DNA of 36,217 nt from a virus. Below are positions 3,935-31,392 of this stretch, in pieces. Position numbers and translations under genes: made by a program. The DNA is taken from positions 1 to 36,217 of IMG/VR virus record IMGVR_UViG_3300035659_000062; one strand, written 5' to 3'. How positions within the stretch are numbered: position 1 is the stretch's first letter; each line of letters begins with the position of its first letter. Under the pieces are notes generated by a model. It was not told the DNA's origin, searched no databases, and saw nothing but the letters and a program-made list of their open reading frames with translations.

Positions 3935-4276
3935 ATGCCGTGCGATACCCAGCTCAAGCAGAACGAGACGGTGGCTCAGCGCAAGGAGACCATCAATAAG
4001 GCCCTGACCCAGCTCGAAGCCGCGCTCACCCAGGGCCAGGCGAAGGTCGTGATCGGCCCCAACGGAGCCGTCGCCTTCCAGGGCTGGAAGCCCGACGACC
4101 GCAACGGAGTCACGGACGTCTGCGCGGTGCGCACGCTCACCGCGAGCAACTCGTGGGCTCTGCGCCAGGCCATCGCGAAGGCGGAAGTCTCGCAGGGCCG
4201 CAAGGTCAACCCGGCCGCGGTCGCCGCAGGCACCCACAGCCACGATCAAGGAAAAACGTGGAATAAAGGTCACTGA
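3935..4276 (+). CDS. phage protein of the MPCDT type, 113 aa
   Basis: ATG 3935 with GAAGGGAG upstream; the frame could extend to 3872 but that would overlap the previous gene without a ribosome-binding site. The protein begins MPCDTQLKQNETVAQRKETI, has VVIGPNGAVAFQGW in the middle and ends with HSHDQGKTWNKGH. I associate this pattern with uncharacterised phage proteins of about 110 residues, but no function is known. Its stop shares one base with the start of the HNH remnant. Confidence 0.8.
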   Translation: MPCDTQLKQNETVAQRKETINKALTQLEAALTQGQAKVVIGPNGAVAFQGWKPDDRNGVTDVCAVRTLTASNSWALRQAIAKAEVSQGRKVNPAAVAAGTHSHDQGKTWNKGH

Positions 4277-4545
4277 TGTACTCGATCGATCGCTACCCAG
4301 ATCGGGATGGCAACTACAAGCCAGGCAACGTGCGATGGGCAACCCGCACCGAGCAGAATCAGAACACCAGCCGCAACGTGAGTCTCACGTTGCAAGGTCA
4401 AACTCACTGCATATCGGAGTGGGCTCGCATCACAGGTATCGGCAAGAAGACGATCGCTGACCGCATCAAGCGCGGGTGGACAGCGTACGCAGCTCTCACC
4501 GTAAAGCCTGTCAAGACTCGCGACTACTCTCGAAAGGATCGCTGA
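4276..4545 (+). pseudogene. HNH endonuclease remnant (C-terminal half)
   Basis: Encodes 89 residues that align with the second half of the intact HNH protein at 14325: YSIDRYPDRDGNYKPGNVRW matches HSLERMKNGKGYKPGNVTW there, followed by the C-terminal helix-turn-helix (SEWARITGIGKKTIADRIKR, GWTAYAALT). The N-terminal ~60 residues, including the YRAW...NYGGRGI part and the first histidines of the HNH fold, are missing, and no frame upstream supplies them. It is probably a deletion remnant of a homing-type endonuclease, unless the DNA-binding part has been kept for regulation. A clean TGATG junction lets ribosomes still enter it. Confidence 0.7.
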
Positions 4546-5469: not shown

Positions 5470-6060
5470 GTGCTAGTCACAGCGACCATCGACGACGTCG
5501 AGGTGAAGACCGCGCCTGCGGAGTCAGTCGTGTCACCAGCATCGATGTACGCGCGTGCCCTAGTGCTGTGGGATGTGCTCATCGAGCATGACCTGAAGGT
5601 GCGCGCGATGCTGCCGGAGCAGATCACTGATCTGCGCGAGGTGTGCAAGTTCGCGGCGGAGAACCGGCTCCGCCGCCACCATGAGGTCCTCCTCTACACG
5701 AAGTCGCGTCAACGCGGCTGGCTGTCAGATGGTGGCGTCGCGTGGCAGCACGCGCGCGGGTTCTTTCTCATCTCTGAGACTGAGAAGAAGCTCAACGCGA
5801 GCATCCTCAAGGGTGACATGACGGACGACCACCGCATGATCAGCCACCGAGTCTACAAACCCATCAATGTCCACGTCGCGTTCCAGGCTGTGGAGTGTGC
5901 ATTCTGCGCTCTCCTCCTGCTGCCAGCACAACATACCCGCGAGAACACGCGAGCGAAGAACACGTCGTTCTACTGGAGTGACTGGAAGCTCGCCGTGTGC
6001 CGCGCGCACACCGACCGTTGCGCGCTCCGCTACCTCATCCGCCAAGGAGTCTCCAAGTGA
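5470..6060 (+). CDS. hypothetical protein, 196 aa
   Basis: GTG 5470 is chosen over an upstream ATG at 5401 because GGAGG lies 9 nt before it and it follows the previous stop by one base. Helical N-terminal half (ALVLWDVLIEHDLKVRAMLP), then a Cys/His pair region (VECAFCALLLLPAQHTREN, later VCRAHTDRC) that could form a zinc site. No family recognised. Confidence 0.75.
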   Translation: MLVTATIDDVEVKTAPAESVVSPASMYARALVLWDVLIEHDLKVRAMLPEQITDLREVCKFAAENRLRRHHEVLLYTKSRQRGWLSDGGVAWQHARGFFLISETEKKLNASILKGDMTDDHRMISHRVYKPINVHVAFQAVECAFCALLLLPAQHTRENTRAKNTSFYWSDWKLAVCRAHTDRCALRYLIRQGVSK

Positions 6061-11297: not shown

Positions 11298-11713
11298 GCG
11301 AACGCGACGACATCGATCCTCGGTTAGAAGCCGAGGCGCAGATCGCTCGCGCCCTGCAGATCGTCATCGACGCGAGCGACCCGGCGATAGACGATCCAGA
11401 CTCGTGCCGAGATTACACGGCAGAGGAGCTGGAGACGTTGTTCTTCGCGCTCAGCATGGCGATGATCCAGCTCAGGAAGGTGCCAGGTGGCAAAGAGGCG
11501 AGAGACCGCTTCTACGAGAAGGCCAAAGACACGCTGCTCAAGCGTGGACGGGACGACCTCGTGGCGAGGTCTATGCTCCCACCCAAGGTCAACGACGCCG
11601 TCGACGAGATCGACGCCCTGCTGAGCTGGGCCAGGGAGGGCGACAAGTCGTCCCTCGATGCGCAAGTTGTCGGCGGTTACCTGCACCGCGCGCGGAACTA
11701 TCTGCTCAAGTAG
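11294..11713 (+). CDS. hypothetical protein upstream of terminase, 139 aa
   Basis: ATG 11294 overlaps the previous stop; earlier starts in the frame are shadow sequence. All-helical and acidic at the N-terminus (SERDDIDPRLEAEAQIARAL), later FALSMAMIQLRKVPGGKEAR and GYLHRARNYLLK. It directly precedes the large terminase, the usual place for a small subunit, but no DNA-binding helix-turn-helix is evident. Confidence 0.75.
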   Translation: MSERDDIDPRLEAEAQIARALQIVIDASDPAIDDPDSCRDYTAEELETLFFALSMAMIQLRKVPGGKEARDRFYEKAKDTLLKRGRDDLVARSMLPPKVNDAVDEIDALLSWAREGDKSSLDAQVVGGYLHRARNYLLK

Positions 11714-11717
11714 AGCG

Positions 11718-13472
11718 ATGAAGATCAGCGACCTCATCGACTCGACGCCGGAAGCAACCACGATGGCCGGCCTGGAAGCCGTCGCCGACAGGGACCCGGT
11801 GGTCTGGTCTGCACTCAACCGTCGCGTGAAGGGCGAGCCGCTCGTCTACGACAACTCGCGCAAGCTCTCGCCAGGGTCGCTCGGCGAGATCAAGAAGACG
11901 CTGCTCATGTCCGACTATGAGAAGGAGCTGCACTCGCGGCTGCTCCACCACAGGGCATTCCACAAGGAACCGCTGCGCGACCAGCACCCGTACAAGGTCT
12001 ACGAGAAGGGACGCCAGGTCGGCGTCACCGAGCTGTCCGCGACCGAGGTGTTCCACTTCCTCGCCACGCACCCGGGCACGAAGTGGATCACGACGTTCCC
12101 GCGCGACAAGCAGCTCACCGACTTCTCCAACACGCGCGTCGCTGCGGCGTACGCGGAGACGTCGCGGATGGCCGCGCTCGCCGGCACGCCGAACCAGGTG
12201 TTCACGAGGCGCGTCGGCGACAGCTACTGGATCTTCCGAAGCGCGTGGGAGGCGAACCTCGGCGAGGGCGTCGACGCGGACGGCGTCACGCTCGATGAGA
12301 TGGACCGCATGCGCGACAAGATCGAGTTCGCGTTCAAGGAGTCGCTCAAGTCGTCGAAGCACGGCCTGTTCCGTGCGATCTCCACGCCCACGATGCCAAA
12401 CCGCGGCATCGACGTGCCATTCCGCGCGAGCGACCAGCGCGTGTGGATGGTGAAGTGCGAGCGGTGCAACGAGTGGCAGGAGATCACGTGGAACGAGAAC
12501 ATCGTCCAGGTGAAGGACTTCCCGCTCGGCACGAAGGAATTGCCGCCGGAGAGCTACGACTACCTGTGCCGGAAGGTGACGTGCCGCGGAAAGCTCGACC
12601 GCGTGTTCTCTGGCCGCTGGGTGGCGCGCTACCCAGACCGCAACCACATCCGTGGCTACCACATGCCGCAGCTCATCGCGCCGTGGATCTCGGCGACGCG
12701 CGTGATGCAGGACAAGATCGACATGCGGTTCCTGGAGCTGTGGCTCTGTTACGTCTGCGGCGTCCCGGCTGCTGGCGAGCTGGAGATGATCACGGACGAG
12801 GACTGCGAGGCGGCGTGCTCGGGACACGCGCTGTTCACGTCGCGCACCAAGGACTACTCGCTCGTGTCGGTCGGCATCGACTGGGGCACCTTGAACTGGG
12901 TCGTGGTCATGGGTCGCAACTCGATCAACTCGCGGCCATACGTCCTCGGCATCGGCATCTTCGAGGACACGGCGAAGGAGCTGGAGAGCGCCGAGATGGT
13001 GTGGAGGTTCATCCAGCCGTTCGTCCCGGACATCACGATCGCGGACGCCGGCTACGGCAAGGATCGCAACTCGTACCTGATGCGCCGGCTATGCCCGACC
13101 GGGATCGAAGGCAGATTCTACGCGCAGTGGTACAACCCGTCGCTCAAGTCGAGCCGCACGTTCATCCCGGAATGGTCGGAGCCGCAGAGAGCCCGCGTGC
13201 TCGTGGACCGCACGCTGACGCTCAAGAACATCTGCCGCGCCGTCAAGGAGCGTGAGTTTGGCATCCCGAACCTCAGCATCGACAAGGTGCAGCTCCTGAT
13301 CCGTCACCTGAAGAACCTCGCGCCATTCAGGGAGCTGGACGAGGAGACCAAGGAGATCGTCGAGACGGTAAAGAGCGCCGGCGACGACCACCTCGCGCAC
13401 GCCCTCGCGTCCGCGCAGCTCGGCATGGAGAAGCTGTCCAAGACGAGCAAGTTCGGTTTCAGTTTCGAGTGA
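11718..13472 (+). CDS. terL: terminase large subunit (packaging ATPase/nuclease)
   Basis: A 584-residue packaging motor of the GpA-like type. The ATPase half has a deviant Walker A, KGRQVGVTE (97-105): the usual C-terminal lysine is valine (103) and a lysine stands at the front, as in lambda gpA. Walker B is GVTLDEMD (189-196) with the catalytic Glu194. A Cys cluster (CERC 247-250, then 284 and 289) forms a probable zinc knuckle. The RNase-H-type nuclease half has acidic residues in GIDWG (386-390), IADAGYGKD (441-449) and DDHLAHA (556-562). Start ATG 11718 lies 4 nt after the previous stop. It would cut concatemers and pump DNA into proheads. The nuclease and ATPase motifs look functional. 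Confidence 0.92.
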   Translation: MKISDLIDSTPEATTMAGLEAVADRDPVVWSALNRRVKGEPLVYDNSRKLSPGSLGEIKKTLLMSDYEKELHSRLLHHRAFHKEPLRDQHPYKVYEKGRQVGVTELSATEVFHFLATHPGTKWITTFPRDKQLTDFSNTRVAAAYAETSRMAALAGTPNQVFTRRVGDSYWIFRSAWEANLGEGVDADGVTLDEMDRMRDKIEFAFKESLKSSKHGLFRAISTPTMPNRGIDVPFRASDQRVWMVKCERCNEWQEITWNENIVQVKDFPLGTKELPPESYDYLCRKVTCRGKLDRVFSGRWVARYPDRNHIRGYHMPQLIAPWISATRVMQDKIDMRFLELWLCYVCGVPAAGELEMITDEDCEAACSGHALFTSRTKDYSLVSVGIDWGTLNWVVVMGRNSINSRPYVLGIGIFEDTAKELESAEMVWRFIQPFVPDITIADAGYGKDRNSYLMRRLCPTGIEGRFYAQWYNPSLKSSRTFIPEWSEPQRARVLVDRTLTLKNICRAVKEREFGIPNLSIDKVQLLIRHLKNLAPFRELDEETKEIVETVKSAGDDHLAHALASAQLGMEKLSKTSKFGFSFE

Positions 13473-13522
13473 TCAACAAGAGGAGCAAGACGATGAGCTA
13501 CGCAGAAGACACGGAGAAGCTA
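13473..13522 (+). repeat. 50-bp direct repeat, copy A
   Basis: Identical over 50 bp to 13877-13926, offset 404 bp. It covers the ribosome-binding site AAGAGGAG and the first ten codons (MSYAEDTEKL). A degenerate third copy of 21 bp lies near 13553-13573 (three mismatches). Confidence 0.9.
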
Positions 13523-13900
13523 CTACCCTGGGTCTACAAGCTTTACCTGCGGCGCCGAAGACATGGAGAAGCGATGAAGGACAAGGAGATGCTAGCTGCG
13601 TACAAGGCAAAAGCAGACCAGATGTTCGTTCCGCTGCAAGACGTCTTGCTGGATCAGATCAGGATGCTTGAGGCTGCGGTGCGTCGCCTCAAAGAAGAAG
13701 CAGCGAAGGATATCGAGGCGATGGAGCAGAAGGACCGCGTGGTCGTCTCAGCGAAGGCGTGGCAGGAGTGGTTCATCGTTGGACAGGAGGATGGTCTCCG
13801 CAAAGCAAAGAACCCCAACGGTGATCTGGTGCGCGCTGTCGATGCCTACGTGGAGTGGTGCTATCCGGGGATCACGTCAACAAGAGGAGCAAGACGATGA
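13493..13900 (+). CDS. hypothetical protein with duplicated N-terminus, 135 aa
   Basis: ATG 13493 and its ribosome-binding site belong to repeat copy A. The first ten residues (MSYAEDTEKL) are identical to those of the next protein; after that the sequences diverge. The rest is helical and charged (KDKEMLAAYKAKADQMFVPL, IRMLEAAVRRLKEEAAKDIE), ending with WQEWFIVGQEDG and VEWCYPG. ATG 13574 may be the original start, before the duplicated start region was placed in front. Function unknown. Confidence 0.7.
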   Translation: MSYAEDTEKLLPWVYKLYLRRRRHGEAMKDKEMLAAYKAKADQMFVPLQDVLLDQIRMLEAAVRRLKEEAAKDIEAMEQKDRVVVSAKAWQEWFIVGQEDGLRKAKNPNGDLVRAVDAYVEWCYPGITSTRGARR

Positions 13901-13926
13901 GCTACGCAGAAGACACGGAGAAGCTA
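13877..13926 (+). repeat. 50-bp direct repeat, copy B
   Basis: Perfect copy of 13473-13522 including the ribosome-binding site and first ten codons of the next gene. The repeat pair brackets the gene at 13493, marking an insertion or duplication. Confidence 0.9.
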
Positions 13927-14289
13927 GAGACGGAACTTCGCGACCTGTCGACGCGGCTGGAGGCGGACAAGCTTCGCTTCCAGCAGGTGCGCGGCGAGCT
14001 GGCAGCCCGGCACGCGAAGGGTGGTGATCAACCTCCACCGAGGATGATGACCGAGGATCAGATGAGGCAGGAACTGCGTGATGCGGCAGCTCGGCAGGAT
14101 GGCGCGCTCATCAACAAGCTGATCGCGATGGAGCTGGAGCAGGCGAAGCTCGTGGTCGAGGCTGAAGTCGCCAAGGCCGCGACGAAGGAAGCCCAAGACA
14201 GGCTCACCATCATCGCGAAGGTGTTCAAGACCAACTTCGACGCCGCAGAGGCTCGCATCAAAGAGGCGCTCGGCACGCAGCAGAGCTGA
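13897..14289 (+). CDS. coiled-coil protein, 130 aa
   Basis: ATG 13897 overlaps the previous stop (ATGA) and uses repeat copy B as its start region. MSYAEDTEKLETELRDLSTR and the following residues are a long heptad-like coiled coil; a Pro-rich break (GGDQPPPRMMTEDQ) separates it from a second helical region (LIAMELEQAKLVVEAEVAKA). The N-terminus continues the heptad pattern smoothly, so this is probably the original gene. Function unknown. Confidence 0.75.
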   Translation: MSYAEDTEKLETELRDLSTRLEADKLRFQQVRGELAARHAKGGDQPPPRMMTEDQMRQELRDAAARQDGALINKLIAMELEQAKLVVEAEVAKAATKEAQDRLTIIAKVFKTNFDAAEARIKEALGTQQS

Positions 14290-14324
14290 CGAGTCTATGA
14301 AGTTCGTGATACACACTTCAACCG

Positions 14325-14777
14325 ATGACATCAGATCTGCAGCGTCGACGAACTTCCGAAGCAAATACGACGCACGGAGAGAGTCAAAGCGTCGAGTATC
14401 GCGCCTGGGCTTCTATGAAGGCTCGCTGTAGCAATCTCAACCATCCGCAGTACAAGAATTATGGTGGGCGTGGCATCAAGGTCTGCAAGCGTTGGCACGA
14501 CAGCTTCGAGAATTTCCTTGCTGACGTTGGGTACCGCCCATCACCAAAGCACAGTCTCGAACGCATGAAGAATGGCAAGGGCTACAAGCCCGGCAACGTC
14601 ACGTGGTCGACCAACAAGAAACAAAGCAGGAACAAACGCACGAATCGCTTCTACACGTTTCAAGGCAAGAAGCTCTGCCTTACGGATTGGGCAAAGAAGT
14701 TCAGCCTCAAAGAACCAACTCTCAGACACCGTCTCGATGTTGGCTGGTCGTTGGAAAGAGCCCTTACCACACCGTGA
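14325..14777 (+). CDS. HNH homing-type endonuclease
   Basis: A complete 150-residue HNH protein of the phage type. It has YRAWASMKARC and YKNYGGRGIKVCKRW at residues 30-60, HSLERMKNGKGYKPGNVTW (the HNH core with the N-containing turn) near 85-105, and a C-terminal helix-turn-helix (LTDWAKKFSLKEPTLRHRLD, GWSLERALTTP). Such enzymes nick DNA and spread into intergenic or coding sites of related phages. A 44-codon frame from 14297 (MKFVIHTST) that it interrupts may be the remains of the gene it entered. It is a full-length relative of the remnant at 4276. Confidence 0.85.
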   Translation: MTSDLQRRRTSEANTTHGESQSVEYRAWASMKARCSNLNHPQYKNYGGRGIKVCKRWHDSFENFLADVGYRPSPKHSLERMKNGKGYKPGNVTWSTNKKQSRNKRTNRFYTFQGKKLCLTDWAKKFSLKEPTLRHRLDVGWSLERALTTP

Positions 14778-14836
14778 AACTCAAACTAATAATCCGCGAT
14801 CGCAACAAGCGCCTCAGGCGCAGAGGAGAGAAGCAG

Positions 14837-15469
14837 ATGTCGATTAAGACGATGACGACCGAACAACTCCGTGGTGACCTCGACGCGCTGGCCCGAACGT
14901 GGCCCGGAGGGATCCCGCCGGAGCAGACGGACCGCGTGAACGCGCTCAAGGGTGAGCTGAAGCGCCGCGGCGAGGACGCGGCGCAGCGCACCCCGCGCGA
15001 GGAGACCAGATCGAAGAACCTGCTCGATATGACGGATGACCAGCTCGCCGCGGAGTTGCGCGTGCTGTCGGACCGCATCGGGAAAGACGGCAAGGATGAG
15101 GAGGCGCAGGAGCGCTTCGCGAACGTCCGCTACGAGATGCGCAAGCGTGCCAGGAAGGCGGAGTCCGACACGCCTCCGACGCGTGCTCCGCTCCCACCAC
15201 GCGCCATGGAGATCCCAGACGAGGTCGTCACGCCAGTGCAGGAGACGCGAGCGGTCGGCGGTCCGACGTCGAGCGAGCCGACGCCGAGCGTCATGTCACC
15301 GAGGAGCTACACCGCGGGCACCGCGGGAAGCGGAGTCATCCTCAAGTACACGATGCAGACCGGAGACTCGATCGTCCAAGTCGCATCCTCGTGGTCGATC
15401 GACGAGGCCGAGGCATTCATCACGATGGTCAAGGAAGCCATCGCGAAGGCGAAGGCTTTCGTCAAGTGA
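14837..15469 (+). CDS. hypothetical protein, 210 aa
   Basis: ATG 14837 has AGAGGAGAG 6 nt upstream; the frame is open further upstream but that part overlaps the HNH gene. Residues 1-55 and 60-110 contain two similar helical units: MTTEQLRGDLDALARTW and MTDDQLAAELRVLSDRI, each followed by an Arg/Lys-rich helix (NALKGELKRRGED, VRYEMRKRARKAE). A Pro/Thr linker (110-165) leads to a C-terminal strand-helix domain (ILKYTMQTGDSIVQVASSW, IDEAEAFITMVKEAIAKAKA). The internal repeat is visible by eye; no function assigned. Confidence 0.75.
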   Translation: MSIKTMTTEQLRGDLDALARTWPGGIPPEQTDRVNALKGELKRRGEDAAQRTPREETRSKNLLDMTDDQLAAELRVLSDRIGKDGKDEEAQERFANVRYEMRKRARKAESDTPPTRAPLPPRAMEIPDEVVTPVQETRAVGGPTSSEPTPSVMSPRSYTAGTAGSGVILKYTMQTGDSIVQVASSWSIDEAEAFITMVKEAIAKAKAFVK

Positions 15470-22189: not shown

Positions 22190-22299
22190 CGATTGATCCT
22201 CAACTTGAATTCGTGGACACCGGGATGCCCGAATGGCAGTTCGCAGTATTTCGAGTCACACGGGTCGTGAAACTGCACGCGCAGCTCCTTGACGGTCAT
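22186..22299 (-). CDS. very small protein, 37 aa
   Basis: Placed by 4-nt overlaps on both sides: ATG 22299 with the methyltransferase stop and TGA with the next ATG. Sequence MTVKELRVQFHDPCDSKYCE with a C-x5-C-x-pattern ending HEFKLRINR. The CxxxxxC...H...H arrangement is typical of the tiny zinc-binding proteins in phage genomes. Unknown. Confidence 0.55.
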   Translation of the reverse strand: MTVKELRVQFHDPCDSKYCELPFGHPGVHEFKLRINR

Positions 22300-22922
22300 C
22301 GCAGCTCCTTGCCGACGCAAGTCCAGCCCTCGCGACGGCGACGAGCGAACAGTTCCAAGTAGGGACCGTGGGCGAGCTTCTCCATGATGTCGTAGAACTC
22401 TTCCGGCTTCTTCGAGTGGATGGCTCTGCCCTTGCTGTCCGAAGGAGCCTTGGCGTCGAACGTCGACCGGATGTTCTTCGCCTTGATCAGCTGCGAGTAG
22501 CGACCACGCGTGGCGAGGATCGCGGTCTCGTGCTCGCCGCGCACGAGGCGCCCCATCCCGAAGTGACGCTTCCCGTTCTTGGTGCGCTTGCACCACACGA
22601 TCTCTGCTTTGGGGACGAAGCCCCAGGCACGTGCCACCTGGTATGCTTCCTCAACCATCGCACCGACGCGCCAGAGCGCCAGGATCGCGTCGTCGGCGAC
22701 GTTGTGCCTCAGAAGGTCTCCGCCCTCGAAGTCGAACCCTGCGACCTCTGCGATGGTGAGCAGGTCGTAGTTCTTCTCCGCGCCGCGGCTCGCGCCTGGT
22801 AACGAGTCCTTGAATGGCCACGGCACGTCGGCGCACACGACACTGAACGGGCGTTGGTCGTCCAGCGTGAACGACGCGCCGCCGGTGAAGGCCAGCACGC
22901 GAGAGAGGACATTCGGCGTCAT
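22296..22922 (-). CDS. MT-A70 family adenine methyltransferase
   Basis: ATG 22922 overlaps the previous stop; the longer frame to 23474 is a shadow. A 208-residue MT-A70 protein: catalytic motif ADVPWPF (31-37, D-V-P-W instead of the usual D-P-P-W), EIVWCKRTKNGKRHFGMGRL (around 107-126), EHETAILATRG, and HSKKPEEFYDIME, the usual KP segment for S-adenosylmethionine binding. It would add a methyl group to N6 of adenine, most likely in DNA in a phage setting, which could protect phage DNA from host restriction. No restriction partner is seen. Confidence 0.85.
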   Translation of the reverse strand: MTPNVLSRVLAFTGGASFTLDDQRPFSVVCADVPWPFKDSLPGASRGAEKNYDLLTIAEVAGFDFEGGDLLRHNVADDAILALWRVGAMVEEAYQVARAWGFVPKAEIVWCKRTKNGKRHFGMGRLVRGEHETAILATRGRYSQLIKAKNIRSTFDAKAPSDSKGRAIHSKKPEEFYDIMEKLAHGPYLELFARRRREGWTCVGKELR

Positions 22923-23398
22923 GGCTTGGGTTCCTCCGGCAGCTTTGGTTGGAGCCACTCCTTCATCGAGTCCGAACGGAATGAGAAGCTGACATCCTCG
23001 TCGGTTGGCAACGTTACTACGACGTGCGACTCGCCGCTCGACCTGCTCGTAGCGGTCACCGAGCAGAGGCTGTAGTAGTCGTTCTTGAACCTGGTCGGAC
23101 TCTCCGGCGTGCGCGCGAACCACCGGTAGGCGACCTTGCGATCGGACTCCCACTCGAAGACGAGAGCGCGCGCGTCGCAGTAGCTGAGCGCACGGCAGAT
23201 CGCAGGACCACTCGTCTCCCAGAACGCTGGTCCGGGCGCGAACTTTCCTCGGAACGGATCCGTCCAGTGATTCAGCCAGCTCGTGTACTGCGCGAACATG
23301 TTGACGGCGACGCGGATCGGACCTCGCGACTCCTGCCACGTGACGATCGGCTTCTCGTGGAAGTCGGTGAACTCCGGCTTGTAGACCTCGACGATCAC
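22919..23398 (-). CDS. hypothetical protein, 159 aa
   Basis: GTG 23398 overlaps the previous stop. Strand-rich with many aromatic residues (VEVYKPEFTDFHEKPIVTWQ, YTSWLNHWTDPFRGKFAPGP), DARALVFEWESDRKVAYRWF, and a terminal helix with Pro-rich end. No family recognised. Confidence 0.7.
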   Translation of the reverse strand: MIVEVYKPEFTDFHEKPIVTWQESRGPIRVAVNMFAQYTSWLNHWTDPFRGKFAPGPAFWETSGPAICRALSYCDARALVFEWESDRKVAYRWFARTPESPTRFKNDYYSLCSVTATSRSSGESHVVVTLPTDEDVSFSFRSDSMKEWLQPKLPEEPKP

Positions 23399-23652
23399 GA
23401 CTTCTTGCCCTTCTTCTCGAATGATGCGTAGTAGGCGGGACGGTCGATGCAGTAGCCGACACCGTCGAGAGCATCCATGAACTTGTCCTGCCAGCGTCCG
23501 ATGGTCTTCTTGTTCTTGGTGTCGATCATCATCCCGCCGCCGCGAGCCATATGCTTGTGGTTGTTGAGCGCGAACAGCACGCACTGCGCGAGTTTGACCG
23601 TGACCTCGCGTGGAATCGGTGTCGGTCGCTTGCGCTTCTTGGTCTTCTTCAT
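23395..23652 (-). CDS. small basic protein, 85 aa
   Basis: ATG 23652. Basic start (MKKTKKRKRPTPIPREVTVK), then QCVLFALNNHKHMARGGGMM and a helical end with a Lys-rich tail (EKKGKKS). Upstream AGGAGCAAG is a ribosome-binding site. Likely nucleic-acid associated, but unassigned. Confidence 0.6.
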   Translation of the reverse strand: MKKTKKRKRPTPIPREVTVKLAQCVLFALNNHKHMARGGGMMIDTKNKKTIGRWQDKFMDALDGVGYCIDRPAYYASFEKKGKKS

Positions 23653-24551: not shown

Positions 24552-24823
24552 AGCTCGATGACTTTCCACTCCTGCCGCACCTCAGCGACGAGTCGACCCT
24601 GCTTCGCGTAGTGGTCAAAGTAGTTGTTGACCAAGCTGTAGCACTTCACCTCGATGCCATCCCTAACGTCGGTCCTCTCCAAGACCTTGCCAGCCCACCC
24701 GTTGCGCATCGCTTCAAGCGTGCATTCTCCGAGCGTCGGCGACCCATGGCATGTACAACCGTCGTGCCAGTGCAGGTGCTTCCGGTTGACCTGAGACAGT
24801 TGACTACTATCTACACGCGTCAT
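24548..24823 (-). CDS. hypothetical protein, 91 aa
   Basis: ATG 24823 overlaps the SbcC-like stop; the frame beyond it is a shadow. A CTCHGSPTLGEC segment with His residues before it (HLHWHDG) could bind metal; the rest is a helix and two strands (VKCYSLVNNYFDHYAKQGRL). Unknown. Confidence 0.65.
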   Translation of the reverse strand: MTRVDSSQLSQVNRKHLHWHDGCTCHGSPTLGECTLEAMRNGWAGKVLERTDVRDGIEVKCYSLVNNYFDHYAKQGRLVAEVRQEWKVIEL

Positions 24824-26679
24824 GTTGCCTCCACCGACGAGAATCCGTCCTTCTTCACGATGCGCAGCGTGGCAGGGAACCATGCCTTGAGGTCTTCATT
24901 GTGGCTGACGACGAAGACGCTGTCCTTGTCGATCTCGGACAGCACCTCGATCACGCGTTCGTGAGCAGCAGAATCGAGATGGTCGAAGACCTCGTCCAGG
25001 AAACAGAGGTTGAACGATGCCGACGACCGTGACGCGACGAGCTTCTGGAGCGCAAGCCCGACGCACAGGTCGACCTTGGCCTTCTCGCCCGCGCTGTTTC
25101 CCTGGTAGCTGCCCGCTCCGTGCTTGTTGTCGACCTTGACCTCGAAGCGGTCGATCGTCTTGCCCGACTTGAGGTCCGACGTCGCGGAGAACTCGACCGC
25201 GATCGTCCCGCCGGTGAGCGCGCGCGAGACGCGGTCGGCCTCCTGGTTGAGGAGCGGCAGCGAGCTGTCGAGAAGGAGCGATCGCAAGCCACGAGCCCCG
25301 AACGCCTTGACCCAGAACTCGACGAGCGCGAGCCGAGCCTCCTCGGCGGTAAACTGCTCGGTCAGCAGCTCGGCCCCCTTCTTGTGCTTCTCGTACTTCG
25401 CCTGCGCCTTCTTCGCGAGCGCCGCGTACGGGTTGGTCTCCGCCTCCAGCTCCTTGATGCGCGTCTCGTGGTCCGCGGCTCGTCGACGCCAGGAGGCGAC
25501 GTCAGCCTCGGCACCGACGCCCTCGTTAACTGCCTTCTGCGCTGCCACCGCCGTGGATCGCGCGTCCTTCAGCTTGCGCTCCGCGCCGGCGAGCTGCTCC
25601 TCGATCTCAGCGACCGCGACGTCGACCTTCTCCAGCGCCTTGGCAGCGAGGGTGAGCTTCTTCTTGAAGTCGCCGACCACGCGTTCGCGCTGCAGGTCAT
25701 CCACGTTCTGACCGCAGGTCGGACAGTCACCGGTGAGAGCTTCGTGACGCTTCACGTGCGCGCGTAGCTCGTCGACCTTCGTCTTGGCGCCGCCTCGCAG
25801 AACCTTCGCCTCCGTGACCGCCTTGTTGCAGACGCCGACCGCCTTCTCGTTCGCGGTCACGTCCTGCACAGCCTTGTCGAACATGACCTTGAGCTTGGTG
25901 GTGTCGACCTTGGTGTTCTTCTTGACCCACTCCTTAGCCTTGCGGAGCTTCTCCTTCTCGGCCCCGAGCTTCGTCTCGTGCTCGGACTCGTACTGCTTGT
26001 CCTTCTTCCTGAGGTCGACAGCGTCTGCGTCCTCGGCATCACGAGCTTCCTCCACCCTCTCCAGGTCACGTTTCGTGATGTCGACCGTCGTGCCGATCAC
26101 AGCCGCCTTGGCGCGGGCCACGTTGCACGCGACCGCGAAGCGCTCCACGCCGAGAACCTCGTCAAGGATCTCCTTTTGCTCCTTATCGGTGAGCGAGCTG
26201 AACCGGTATGCGCGGTCCTGCCCGAACACGACGCTCGACAGGAACGTGCGCCTGGAGCAGCCGAGCAGCTCGTCGACGACCTCCTGCGTCTCCGACGTGC
26301 TCGGCCTGCTCAAGTCGGTCGAGTCGCCGCCCTGGTCGATCTCAGACACGATGAGCGCGTTCTTCGACTTCTTGTGCTTGCGGAAGCGCATCACATCGTA
26401 GGCCGCGCTGGTGTCGTTCGGGACCAGGCGGACGGTGACGACGCAGTCCTCGCCGACCTTGCGGTGGACGACCTCGTCGTTCTCGTAGCCACGCAGTGTG
26501 GTCCCGAACAGGCACCACACGAGGGCATCGATCATGGCGCTCTTGCCGCTGCCGTTGGAGCGCGCGCTCTCGTCGTCCTGGTTGTCGCCCTCGACAAGCA
26601 CGAGACCTTGGTCCTCGAAGTCGAAGCGCGCCTTCCCAAAGCTCAAGAAGTTCTCCACCGTCATCGAAGTGATCTTCAT
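24820..26679 (-). CDS. sbcC: SbcC/gp46-like recombination ATPase
   Basis: A 619-residue SMC-like ATPase, the size of T4 gp46 (about 560), much shorter than E. coli SbcC (1048). ATG 26679 overlaps the previous stop. It begins MKITSMTVENFLSFGKARFD; the P-loop SNGSGKS is at 41-47, a Q-loop region follows, then long coiled coils broken at the zinc hook C-P-T-C (319-322). The signature NSAGEKAKVDLCVGLAL and Walker B LCFLDE (558-563) come after the second coil, and the H-loop SH near 592. With the SbcD-like nuclease it would process DNA ends to start recombination. All key motifs are intact. Confidence 0.93.
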   Translation of the reverse strand: MKITSMTVENFLSFGKARFDFEDQGLVLVEGDNQDDESARSNGSGKSAMIDALVWCLFGTTLRGYENDEVVHRKVGEDCVVTVRLVPNDTSAAYDVMRFRKHKKSKNALIVSEIDQGGDSTDLSRPSTSETQEVVDELLGCSRRTFLSSVVFGQDRAYRFSSLTDKEQKEILDEVLGVERFAVACNVARAKAAVIGTTVDITKRDLERVEEARDAEDADAVDLRKKDKQYESEHETKLGAEKEKLRKAKEWVKKNTKVDTTKLKVMFDKAVQDVTANEKAVGVCNKAVTEAKVLRGGAKTKVDELRAHVKRHEALTGDCPTCGQNVDDLQRERVVGDFKKKLTLAAKALEKVDVAVAEIEEQLAGAERKLKDARSTAVAAQKAVNEGVGAEADVASWRRRAADHETRIKELEAETNPYAALAKKAQAKYEKHKKGAELLTEQFTAEEARLALVEFWVKAFGARGLRSLLLDSSLPLLNQEADRVSRALTGGTIAVEFSATSDLKSGKTIDRFEVKVDNKHGAGSYQGNSAGEKAKVDLCVGLALQKLVASRSSASFNLCFLDEVFDHLDSAAHERVIEVLSEIDKDSVFVVSHNEDLKAWFPATLRIVKKDGFSSVEAT

Positions 26680-27023
26680 GCTGACGGGTCTTTCTTCTTC
26701 GCCTGGTTGTCTTCCCACCGCCGGTACGACGCGAGCGTGTCCATGAACAGCTTCGCGTCGGCGTCGACACTCTGGAGCACTGGCACACGCTCGTCGACCG
26801 CACGTCCTGCCATCCAGCCGCTGACATACCCGAGCTGGACCTTCTTCGTCATCATGACCATCGCCTGCTCGAACGCGAAGGCGAGCCTATCGAGGTCGGT
26901 CTTGATCTTGGTGCGCTCCGCTGCGATCTGATCGATCGCCTCCTCGAACGTTATCGCGCAGAAGATGAGCGTGGCGACCTGCTCCTGCAGCTCCTCGATC
27001 TTGTCGGTGGCCCACTCGCTCAT
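26676..27023 (-). CDS. helical hypothetical protein, 115 aa
   Basis: ATG 27023 overlaps the previous stop and its TGA overlaps the sbcC start. Almost wholly helical (TDKIEELQEQVATLIFCAIT, DLDRLAFAFEQAMVMMTKKV), ending with Asp/Lys-rich residues. It may act with SbcC, but only position suggests it. Confidence 0.65.
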   Translation of the reverse strand: MSEWATDKIEELQEQVATLIFCAITFEEAIDQIAAERTKIKTDLDRLAFAFEQAMVMMTKKVQLGYVSGWMAGRAVDERVPVLQSVDADAKLFMDTLASYRRWEDNQAKKKDPSA

Positions 27024-29975: not shown

Positions 29976-30277
29976 TATGTTCTCCTCTCTGCTGCGCGCT
30001 CGGCTCTGATGCGCGCCATACGGAGCTTCGCACCCGCGACACGGTTGCACTCCTTGATCTGCTTCCAGACCGCGTCTGACTCGTTTGGGGCCATCACCGC
30101 GATGTGGTCGGCCAACCAGAGGGTCAGCGTCTTCGCGGCGCCACGCAGCAGCGCAGCGGTCTCGTGGAGCTTGCTCGCGCCCTTGTCGTCAGGCTTGTGG
30201 CAATACGTGCAGGCGCCGCGGCGGTAGCGATGCATGCCCTTCATGCCAGGACTGCACGGGAAAGTTTTCTTCTTCAC
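29975..30277 (-). CDS. small basic protein with possible zinc site, 100 aa
   Basis: GTG 30277 overlaps the SbcD-like stop. Basic start with Cys/His residues (KKKTFPCSPGMKGMHRYRRG, ACTYCHK), then a helix (KLHETAALLRGAAKTLTLWL) and an Arg-rich tail (RMARIRAERAAERRT). Unknown. Confidence 0.65.
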   Translation of the reverse strand: MKKKTFPCSPGMKGMHRYRRGACTYCHKPDDKGASKLHETAALLRGAAKTLTLWLADHIAVMAPNESDAVWKQIKECNRVAGAKLRMARIRAERAAERRT

Positions 30278-31392
30278 TTCGTTGCCTCCTCGATCAGGCT
30301 GAGCCCGACACGCAGGAGGTCCTCGCGCTCTGATGGATCCACGGCGATGTGCTCCAGGTACTTCTCCAGGAGCTGACGGTCTCCCATCGTGAGATCGACC
30401 TGCAGACGCGACGACTTCGGTAGTGTCGCGGCCTGAGTCGGGCACGCGCGCGTGCCGAGCGCACCGAGTCCGCGCAGCACACCCTCGATCGATTCCCACG
30501 GCATCGGCAGCTCGTCGAACACGACGTCGACGAAGTTGCCCTTCACGTGCTCTCGCATGTCGAAGTCTTCGTCCACGATCTGCTCGGGCGTGAGCTTCAC
30601 GAAGCGTGGCAGGTCGAGAGTGACGCGCTTGACCTTGCAGAGCTTGCCGGTGTCGAGCACGAGGAAGCCCTTCGGTGAGGTCTCACCGCGCACGAACTCC
30701 ATCGGCGAGCCGACGTACCACGCGTTGCCTCTGGTGCCGATCTCCTGGTGCGCGTGGTAGTGCCCGGACAGCATCCAGTCGAATGACTTCGCATATAGGT
30801 CCGCGTCGGCGTCCTCCTTGACGACGTACTCCAGTGACGTGCCGACACGAGCACCGCGGAAGCCGTGATGAAACAGGCCGATCGTCAGGACGACACCGCG
30901 GCCCTTCTCCTGCTCGCGCATCGCGAGCGCGATGTCGGTCCGCCGACGCAGGGTGTCGGCGTCCGGGCAGTACGACACCGCGGTGATGACGACCTCCGTG
31001 CCGTCCTCGCCCTCGATGTGCCAGTTCGCCCACCCGTCATCGTCGACCGTGCGGAGCAGCTCCGCGCTCTCCAGCGCCTGCAACGAGTGGATCTTGCCCT
31101 TGCGATCGGCGGAGTCGTGGTTGCCGACGTTAGCGAGCAACGTGAGGCCGGCACGCTTCCACTGTGCCAGCTCCGCGACGACGAGGTTGTACGGCAGCGT
31201 GTAGAGCACGCCGCGCTTGTGGAACAGGTCTCCGCCGAAGAGGACGAGCTTGATCCCGTTCACCACGCAGTGCGCGCGGACCTGCTGCAGCACCGAGAGG
31301 TTGTGCTTCAACCGGCTCGGCACTCCGCCATCGTCGTGGGAGTGCTCGGCCCACGCGTGCACGTGAGCATCGGAGAAGATCGCTATCTTCAT
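30274..31392 (-). CDS. sbcD: SbcD/gp47-like recombination nuclease
   Basis: A 372-residue calcineurin-like phosphoesterase (T4 gp47 about 340). Metal-binding motifs: D8-A-H10 (SDAHVH), GGD at 53-55 (GGDLFHK), GNHD (90-93), HH (175-176) and GHYHAH (210-215). ATG 31392 overlaps the previous stop; the C-terminal 100 residues probably bind SbcC. With the ATPase at 24820 it forms an end-processing complex; the two genes are 3.6 kb apart here, separated by small genes and the tRNA. Confidence 0.93.
   Translation of the reverse strand: MKIAIFSDAHVHAWAEHSHDDGGVPSRLKHNLSVLQQVRAHCVVNGIKLVLFGGDLFHKRGVLYTLPYNLVVAELAQWKRAGLTLLANVGNHDSADRKGKIHSLQALESAELLRTVDDDGWANWHIEGEDGTEVVITAVSYCPDADTLRRRTDIALAMREQEKGRGVVLTIGLFHHGFRGARVGTSLEYVVKEDADADLYAKSFDWMLSGHYHAHQEIGTRGNAWYVGSPMEFVRGETSPKGFLVLDTGKLCKVKRVTLDLPRFVKLTPEQIVDEDFDMREHVKGNFVDVVFDELPMPWESIEGVLRGLGALGTRACPTQAATLPKSSRLQVDLTMGDRQLLEKYLEHIAVDPSEREDLLRVGLSLIEEATK

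Follow-up and report, generated by a model that had tools for sequence, protein, structure and literature searches.

The small gene gA of the phage analysed here was probably gained recently, when 354 bp of foreign DNA carrying it were inserted at the start of the neighbouring gene gB by an illegitimate recombination event that duplicated the 50-bp start region, a reading to which we give a probability of roughly 0.6. Irrespective of the mechanism, the succession of repeat, unique insert (U) and repeat represents an insertion that duplicated 50 bases of its target. The window, i.e. the whole analysed stretch of 36,217 nucleotides, comes from a single contig assembled from a metagenome, on which the junctions described below rest. 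Phages constantly gain small genes of unknown function, and the junctions created in this way are mostly too old to be read. The gA insertion is a clean example of this familiar type of event, ordinary as a way for phages to gain genes but with a scar that is unusually easy to read: it is fresh enough to reveal the target, the insert, how long the duplication is and in what way the neighbour remained intact, and it suggests a route by which a newcomer gene can acquire a ribosome-binding site at once.

Two identical copies of a gene start

The direct repeats R1 (13473-13522, plus strand) and R2 (13877-13926, plus strand) are 50 bp long each and identical, and their identity breaks off abruptly, the flanking bases being A and G on the left and C and G on the right. 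The initial annotation had described perfect 50-bp direct repeats bracketing a gene, and the pair is indeed exact, sharp-ended and the longest exact repeat of the window; when R2 is omitted, the longest exact repeat measures 16 nt, within the 14-17 nt obtained from 20 first-order Markov sequences of equal length. Both copies contain the Shine-Dalgarno sequence AAGAGGAG, an ATG and ten codons (MSYAEDTEKL), so that the ribosome-binding site and the first ten codons are the same twice, again as annotated. The ATG of R1 is located at 13493, 20 nt past the stop codon of the preceding terminase gene. At up to two mismatches the start-signal pattern has two sites in the window, R1 and R2 themselves, with 0.01 expected; the same signal is thus not spread over many genes of the window, as it is in the case of start-associated sequences, and no further IMG/VR record carries it. 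The start signal had also been called promoterless, which is consistent with our scan for sigma-70-like promoter sites: neither a promoter-like site of this type nor a terminator stem-loop was found at the repeats.

The annotation had further reported a degenerate 21-bp third copy between the repeats. This copy, at 13554-13574 (plus strand), corresponds to the last 21 bases of the repeat with 3/21 mismatches and goes beyond chance, as none of 400 dinucleotide shuffles of the 354-bp U matched any 21-mer of the repeat at three or fewer mismatches. Its frame is +1 with respect to that of gA, and the peptide encoded by the repeat is therefore not duplicated within gA.

Exact repeats of at least 20 nt were also surveyed in 20 stretches from 7 of the 15 relative records described below (one of which was covered in part). 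Among the best six repeats per stretch, all belonged to other elements, except for a 20-nt word comprising a Shine-Dalgarno sequence and ATG that occurs exactly at three gene starts of record G008 (locus L049; 11390, 12389 and 15073, minus strand). GC-rich repeats of 66-89 nt, which are not gene starts, were seen in L045 (record G007; 1903, 2285 and 5283) and L054 (record G003; 3187, 3553 and 5110).

The probable insert and gene gA

The unique insert U (13523-13876, plus strand) is 354 bp long and has a GC content of 0.573 vs 0.625 for the window. Read from R1, the open reading frame of gA extends from 13493 to 13900 (plus strand; 135 codons), and its TGA stop codon overlaps the ATG of R2, for which reason gA and gB may be translationally coupled. 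Codon use shifts within U. The gA core (13574-13876) is coding-like and resembles the phage's own genes (score 0.393; third-position GC 0.72), whereas 13523-13573 is not coding-like: scores as low as that of this stretch, which with its 17 codons is a small sample for codon statistics, occur in 1 of 587 equal-length windows of the terminase gene, in none of 85 of the gA core and in 12 of 134 of the alien HNH gene located downstream. Because of these codon statistics and of the GGAG of the third repeat copy, 5 bases before the ATG at 13574, we infer that gA originally began there; the native frame suggested in this way runs from 13574 to 13900 (plus strand), with the R1 start adding 27 codons to it. 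The start that the two genes share is thus probably a second copy of the gB 5' end that now leads into gA. The earlier description of two adjacent genes with the same start holds for the DNA as it stands, but probably not for the native start of gA, which codon statistics suggest is the internal ATG.

No relatives of gA were found in IMG/VR, phage records, plasmids or genome contigs (where the core served as query) at the sensitivity used, and neither a nuclease-like domain nor a transposase family was recognized in its product by Pfam and PHROGs. A structure model predicted without an alignment has a mean pLDDT of 68.8, and the products of gA and gB are both predicted to be long-helical. The scan of 13300-14950, which covered promoters of the sigma-70-like type, revealed no promoter or terminator of gA's own. 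U does not have the features of an insertion sequence or transposon, as gA has no transposase match and no pair of inverted repeats is present at the ends of U. For a transposon target duplication, 50 bp would also be long.

The long-helical prediction for both products, together with one suggestive local alignment of gA to the gB of the window, might point to gB having been duplicated in tandem, as the initial annotation had considered, with the first copy then diverging fast everywhere except at its start, but this explanation is close to refuted and gA is ruled out as a diverged gB paralogue, since its scores lie among those of its own shuffles both against the gB profile (20th of 252, the gA core 53rd of 252) and in pairwise comparisons (with none of the 11 family members does Z reach 3, the best being 2.67 for L003, reached by 3/200 shuffles).

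The terminase-gB junction in related phages

The gene upstream of R1 (11658-13472, plus strand) encodes the terminase large subunit (phrog_675, E 1.1e-116; Pfam GpA_ATPase, E 4.4e-15). Downstream, gB (13897-14289, plus strand; 130 codons) encodes a conserved small helical protein, recognized by tblastn and alignment. Its structure model is confident (pLDDT 84.9) and consists of two plain helices, for which Foldseek gave a single match (E 9); homologues of gB were absent from phage records. Fifteen relatives were compared, 14 of them obtained by a terminase search of IMG/VR and one (L018) by a profile search; they are not all independent, as L003/L004 and L009-L012 are near-identical among themselves, and the terminase identity of the closest known relative is no higher than 83%.

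A gB homologue directly follows the terminase gene in 11 of 14 loci (tblastn), and in 11/15 relatives a single gB start is found with its ATG 12-42 nt past the terminase stop, a range that includes the 20 nt of the R1 ATG. In L010 the gene start is the same as that of L009, after which the contig ends; in L002 and L006 the gene gC occupies this position and gB is absent. In L018 an unrelated open reading frame of 73 codons (5777-5998), without a Pfam match, lies ahead of a gB-like gene, and this different small reading frame at the terminase-gB junction is counted in favour of insertion there. The gene gA itself is present in 0/15 relatives. No match was obtained at E <=10 in their whole records, although this search had no positive control and its empty result shows little; the best tblastn match across the 14 terminase loci had an E of 0.69. 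The initial annotation had proposed a recent insertion and a comparison with related phages, and the comparison agrees with it, gA being absent from the relatives and the native terminase-gB junction present in them. The same arrangement with diverged repeats in distant phages, which had been named as a refutation of it, was not encountered in the 15 relatives.

The alignment of nine gB proteins links R2 to its present gene. The residues T7, E8 and L10, inside the repeat, and E11, L14 and L17, just past it, are invariant, and because invariant residues lie on either side of the right border of the repeat, R2 is in its native gB context. As the left flank of R1 and the right flank of R2 are both native, the addition amounts to 354 unique bp plus one repeat copy. 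The exact repeats at the borders and the single gB start of the relatives are what a target duplication leaves, the empty site being known from diverged relatives only; an empty site bearing the identical repeat sequence was not seen, because the closest relative reaches only 83% terminase identity.

The N-terminus of gB differs widely among the relatives, so that the terminase-gB junction is generally changeable. The N-terminal extensions of L009-L012 and L015 differ; in L015 the extension contains a CxxC...CxxC pattern (Zn_ribbon_LapB, E 0.038, which does not reach the cut-off). The possibility that the left part of U (13523-13574) continues an N-terminus that was longer in the ancestral gB, as it is in L013 and L014, was rejected, as local alignments were no better than those of shuffles (P 0.22 and 0.39 for L013 and L014; range 0.22-0.99 over six relatives). 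We also rejected as repeat donor the gene of L002 and L013 that has a similar start signal, as nothing homologous to it occurs in the window (best E 0.20). In L013 (92-2635) the terminase homologue is split by an in-frame insert of ~350 residues that starts with Cys, Pfam matching the terminase domain only. The insert looks like an intein.

The HNH endonuclease gene and the gB-gC junction

The next junction downstream is occupied by a gene for an HNH endonuclease of the homing type (14325-14777, plus strand; phrog_3377, E 4e-51), the stop codon of which overlaps the GTG at 14774. From this GTG the reading frame of gC is open (14774-15469, plus strand), with conservation beginning at an ATG near 14838; in the relatives gC is the next gene after gB. 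The HNH gene is found at the gB-gC position in 0/15 relatives, with a homologue elsewhere in two of them, and on this sequence comparison it is taken to be a second insertion, separating gB from gC. It is thus this neighbour, and not gA, that qualifies as a homing endonuclease insertion. The sequence ATGAAGTTCGTGATACA (14297-14313, plus strand), directly past the gB stop, matches the gC start of L002 at 14/17 positions; for the 14 bases after its ATG, at least 11 matches at one given position have a probability of 4e-5, a value in which the choice of L002 among the relatives is not yet taken into account. It is a possible relict of gC's native start. Since the present gC start, past the HNH gene, fits this putative relict at only 8/17 positions, we treat the parallel between the gA and HNH insertions as a suggestion. 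Elsewhere in the window, an 89-codon open reading frame (4276-4545, plus strand) matches the C-terminal part of phrog_3377 (E 2e-24) and probably represents a truncated homing endonuclease.

Proposed event and alternative explanations

According to the insertion reading, a foreign piece carrying gA would have entered between the terminase gene and gB, at the start of the latter. The gene gB would have stayed intact because R2 rebuilt its full start, as the exact repeat and the gB alignment suggest, while R1 would supply a Shine-Dalgarno sequence and an in-frame ATG reading into gA. The least certain part is how the ends were joined: a replicating or repaired end may have copied foreign DNA and rejoined its own template 50 bp upstream in one step. 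Such a step could be a template switch returning 50 bases upstream, or U could have been captured by staggered ends after their fill-in; the order repeat, U, repeat is predicted by both, and no datum singles out either. Recombination-based repair is plausible, given the SbcC- and SbcD-like proteins encoded by the record. Genes for a DNA methyltransferase-like protein and for SbcC/SbcD-like nuclease subunits lie at 22296-23474, 24820-26718 and 30274-31392 (minus strand). Recombination between R1 and R2 is predicted to delete gA exactly and to restore the terminase-gB arrangement.

A single clean insertion leaves the third diverged copy in U unaccounted for. It would require either that a related start already preceded gA in the donor of U or that copying of the gB start had taken place once before; the N-termini of L013 and L014 lend no support to such earlier copying. 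A wider idea, which we regard as doubtful, is that gene starts of this phage group serve as landing sites, at which newcomers (gA, the HNH gene and the small open reading frame of L018) would enter, the start would be rebuilt downstream so that the resident survives, and the old start would drive the newcomer. The perfect duplicate at gA, the putative relict of the gC start and the lack of any trace in L018 would then represent successive ages, and the third copy in U an older round.

An assembly chimera is an unlikely alternative to the insertion of gA. Two variants or phages would have been joined at a common 50-base start, the true genomes having terminase-gB or carrying gA elsewhere. In its favour, the virus contig is a product of assembly, no second record has the start signal, and exact 50-base repeats are typical words for assembler misjoins; but a plain misjoin at a common word yields one copy, not two flanking unique DNA, and 50 bases fall short both of the reads and of the longest words that assemblers normally use. 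That gA is in frame and that the composition of U is near that of the phage also argue against a chimera.

Still less probable is the capture of U at a break made by a homing endonuclease, for example that of the HNH gene 400 bp downstream, which would have cut or nicked both strands of the gB start ~50 bp apart, with subsequent fill-in. The HNH gene at the next junction, the possible gC-start relict ahead of it and the truncated HNH-like reading frame at 4276-4545 fit such a history. However, gA has no nuclease-like domain by Pfam or PHROGs, and a stagger of 50 bp far exceeds those known for homing endonucleases.

We consider it about equally improbable that the insertion is older and that gene conversion, or selection on a common signal comparable to start-associated sequences, has held the two starts identical. 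The leader GAGGAGCAAG followed by ATG does recur, at one more site of the window, at four in G008 and at one each in G007, L002 and L013, vs none in Markov sequences, but these recurring leaders have ~10-20 nt in common and not 50, and the identity of R1 and R2 includes the third positions of all ten codons and stops abruptly on both sides.

Comparison with known systems

Phage morons are extra small single genes located between conserved late genes, absent from relatives and somewhat lower in GC. Likewise, gA lies between conserved late genes, is absent from relatives (0/15 positive) and has a GC content of 0.573 vs 0.625. It differs in that the scan for sigma-70-type promoters and for terminators revealed none of its own; the start of its neighbour was copied instead. 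The best reading is that of a recent and moron-like insertion.

Repeated sequences at translation starts of unrelated genes are also known from Cluster K mycobacteriophages, in which a 13-bp start-associated sequence is re-used at many genes (PMC3203893); as described there, this is a short signal, whereas the present repeat comprises 50 bp including coding sequence at two adjacent genes. In T4-type phages, promoter early stem-loop cassettes shuffle genes (Arbiol 2010 and Comeau 2014, as cited in PMC4503421), and repeated expression signals at gene borders act as recombination sites, as the repeat at gB may have done, although no promoter or terminator stem-loop was found in it. Free-standing HNH genes are inserted at gene junctions of Cluster J mycobacteriophages (PMC3706429), and one junction is used by unrelated genes; the likeness lies in this intergenic insertion at junctions, and the differences in that gA is no nuclease by library match and that no 50-bp start duplication is reported in the relevant parts of that paper.

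The kayvirus 812h1 offers a further comparison, with a 2-kb insertion/deletion polymorphism whose borders are the direct repeat GGAGGTTAATTWATGAA (PMC6445280). In the portion of that paper describing it, the repeat measures 17 nt, six open reading frames are enclosed and both forms were seen, whereas here the repeat of 50 bp contains ten codons, a single open reading frame is enclosed and one form was seen. In both cases, genes lie between direct repeats whose letters read as a Shine-Dalgarno sequence and a start codon, and the presence of these genes varies among relatives (PMC6445280).
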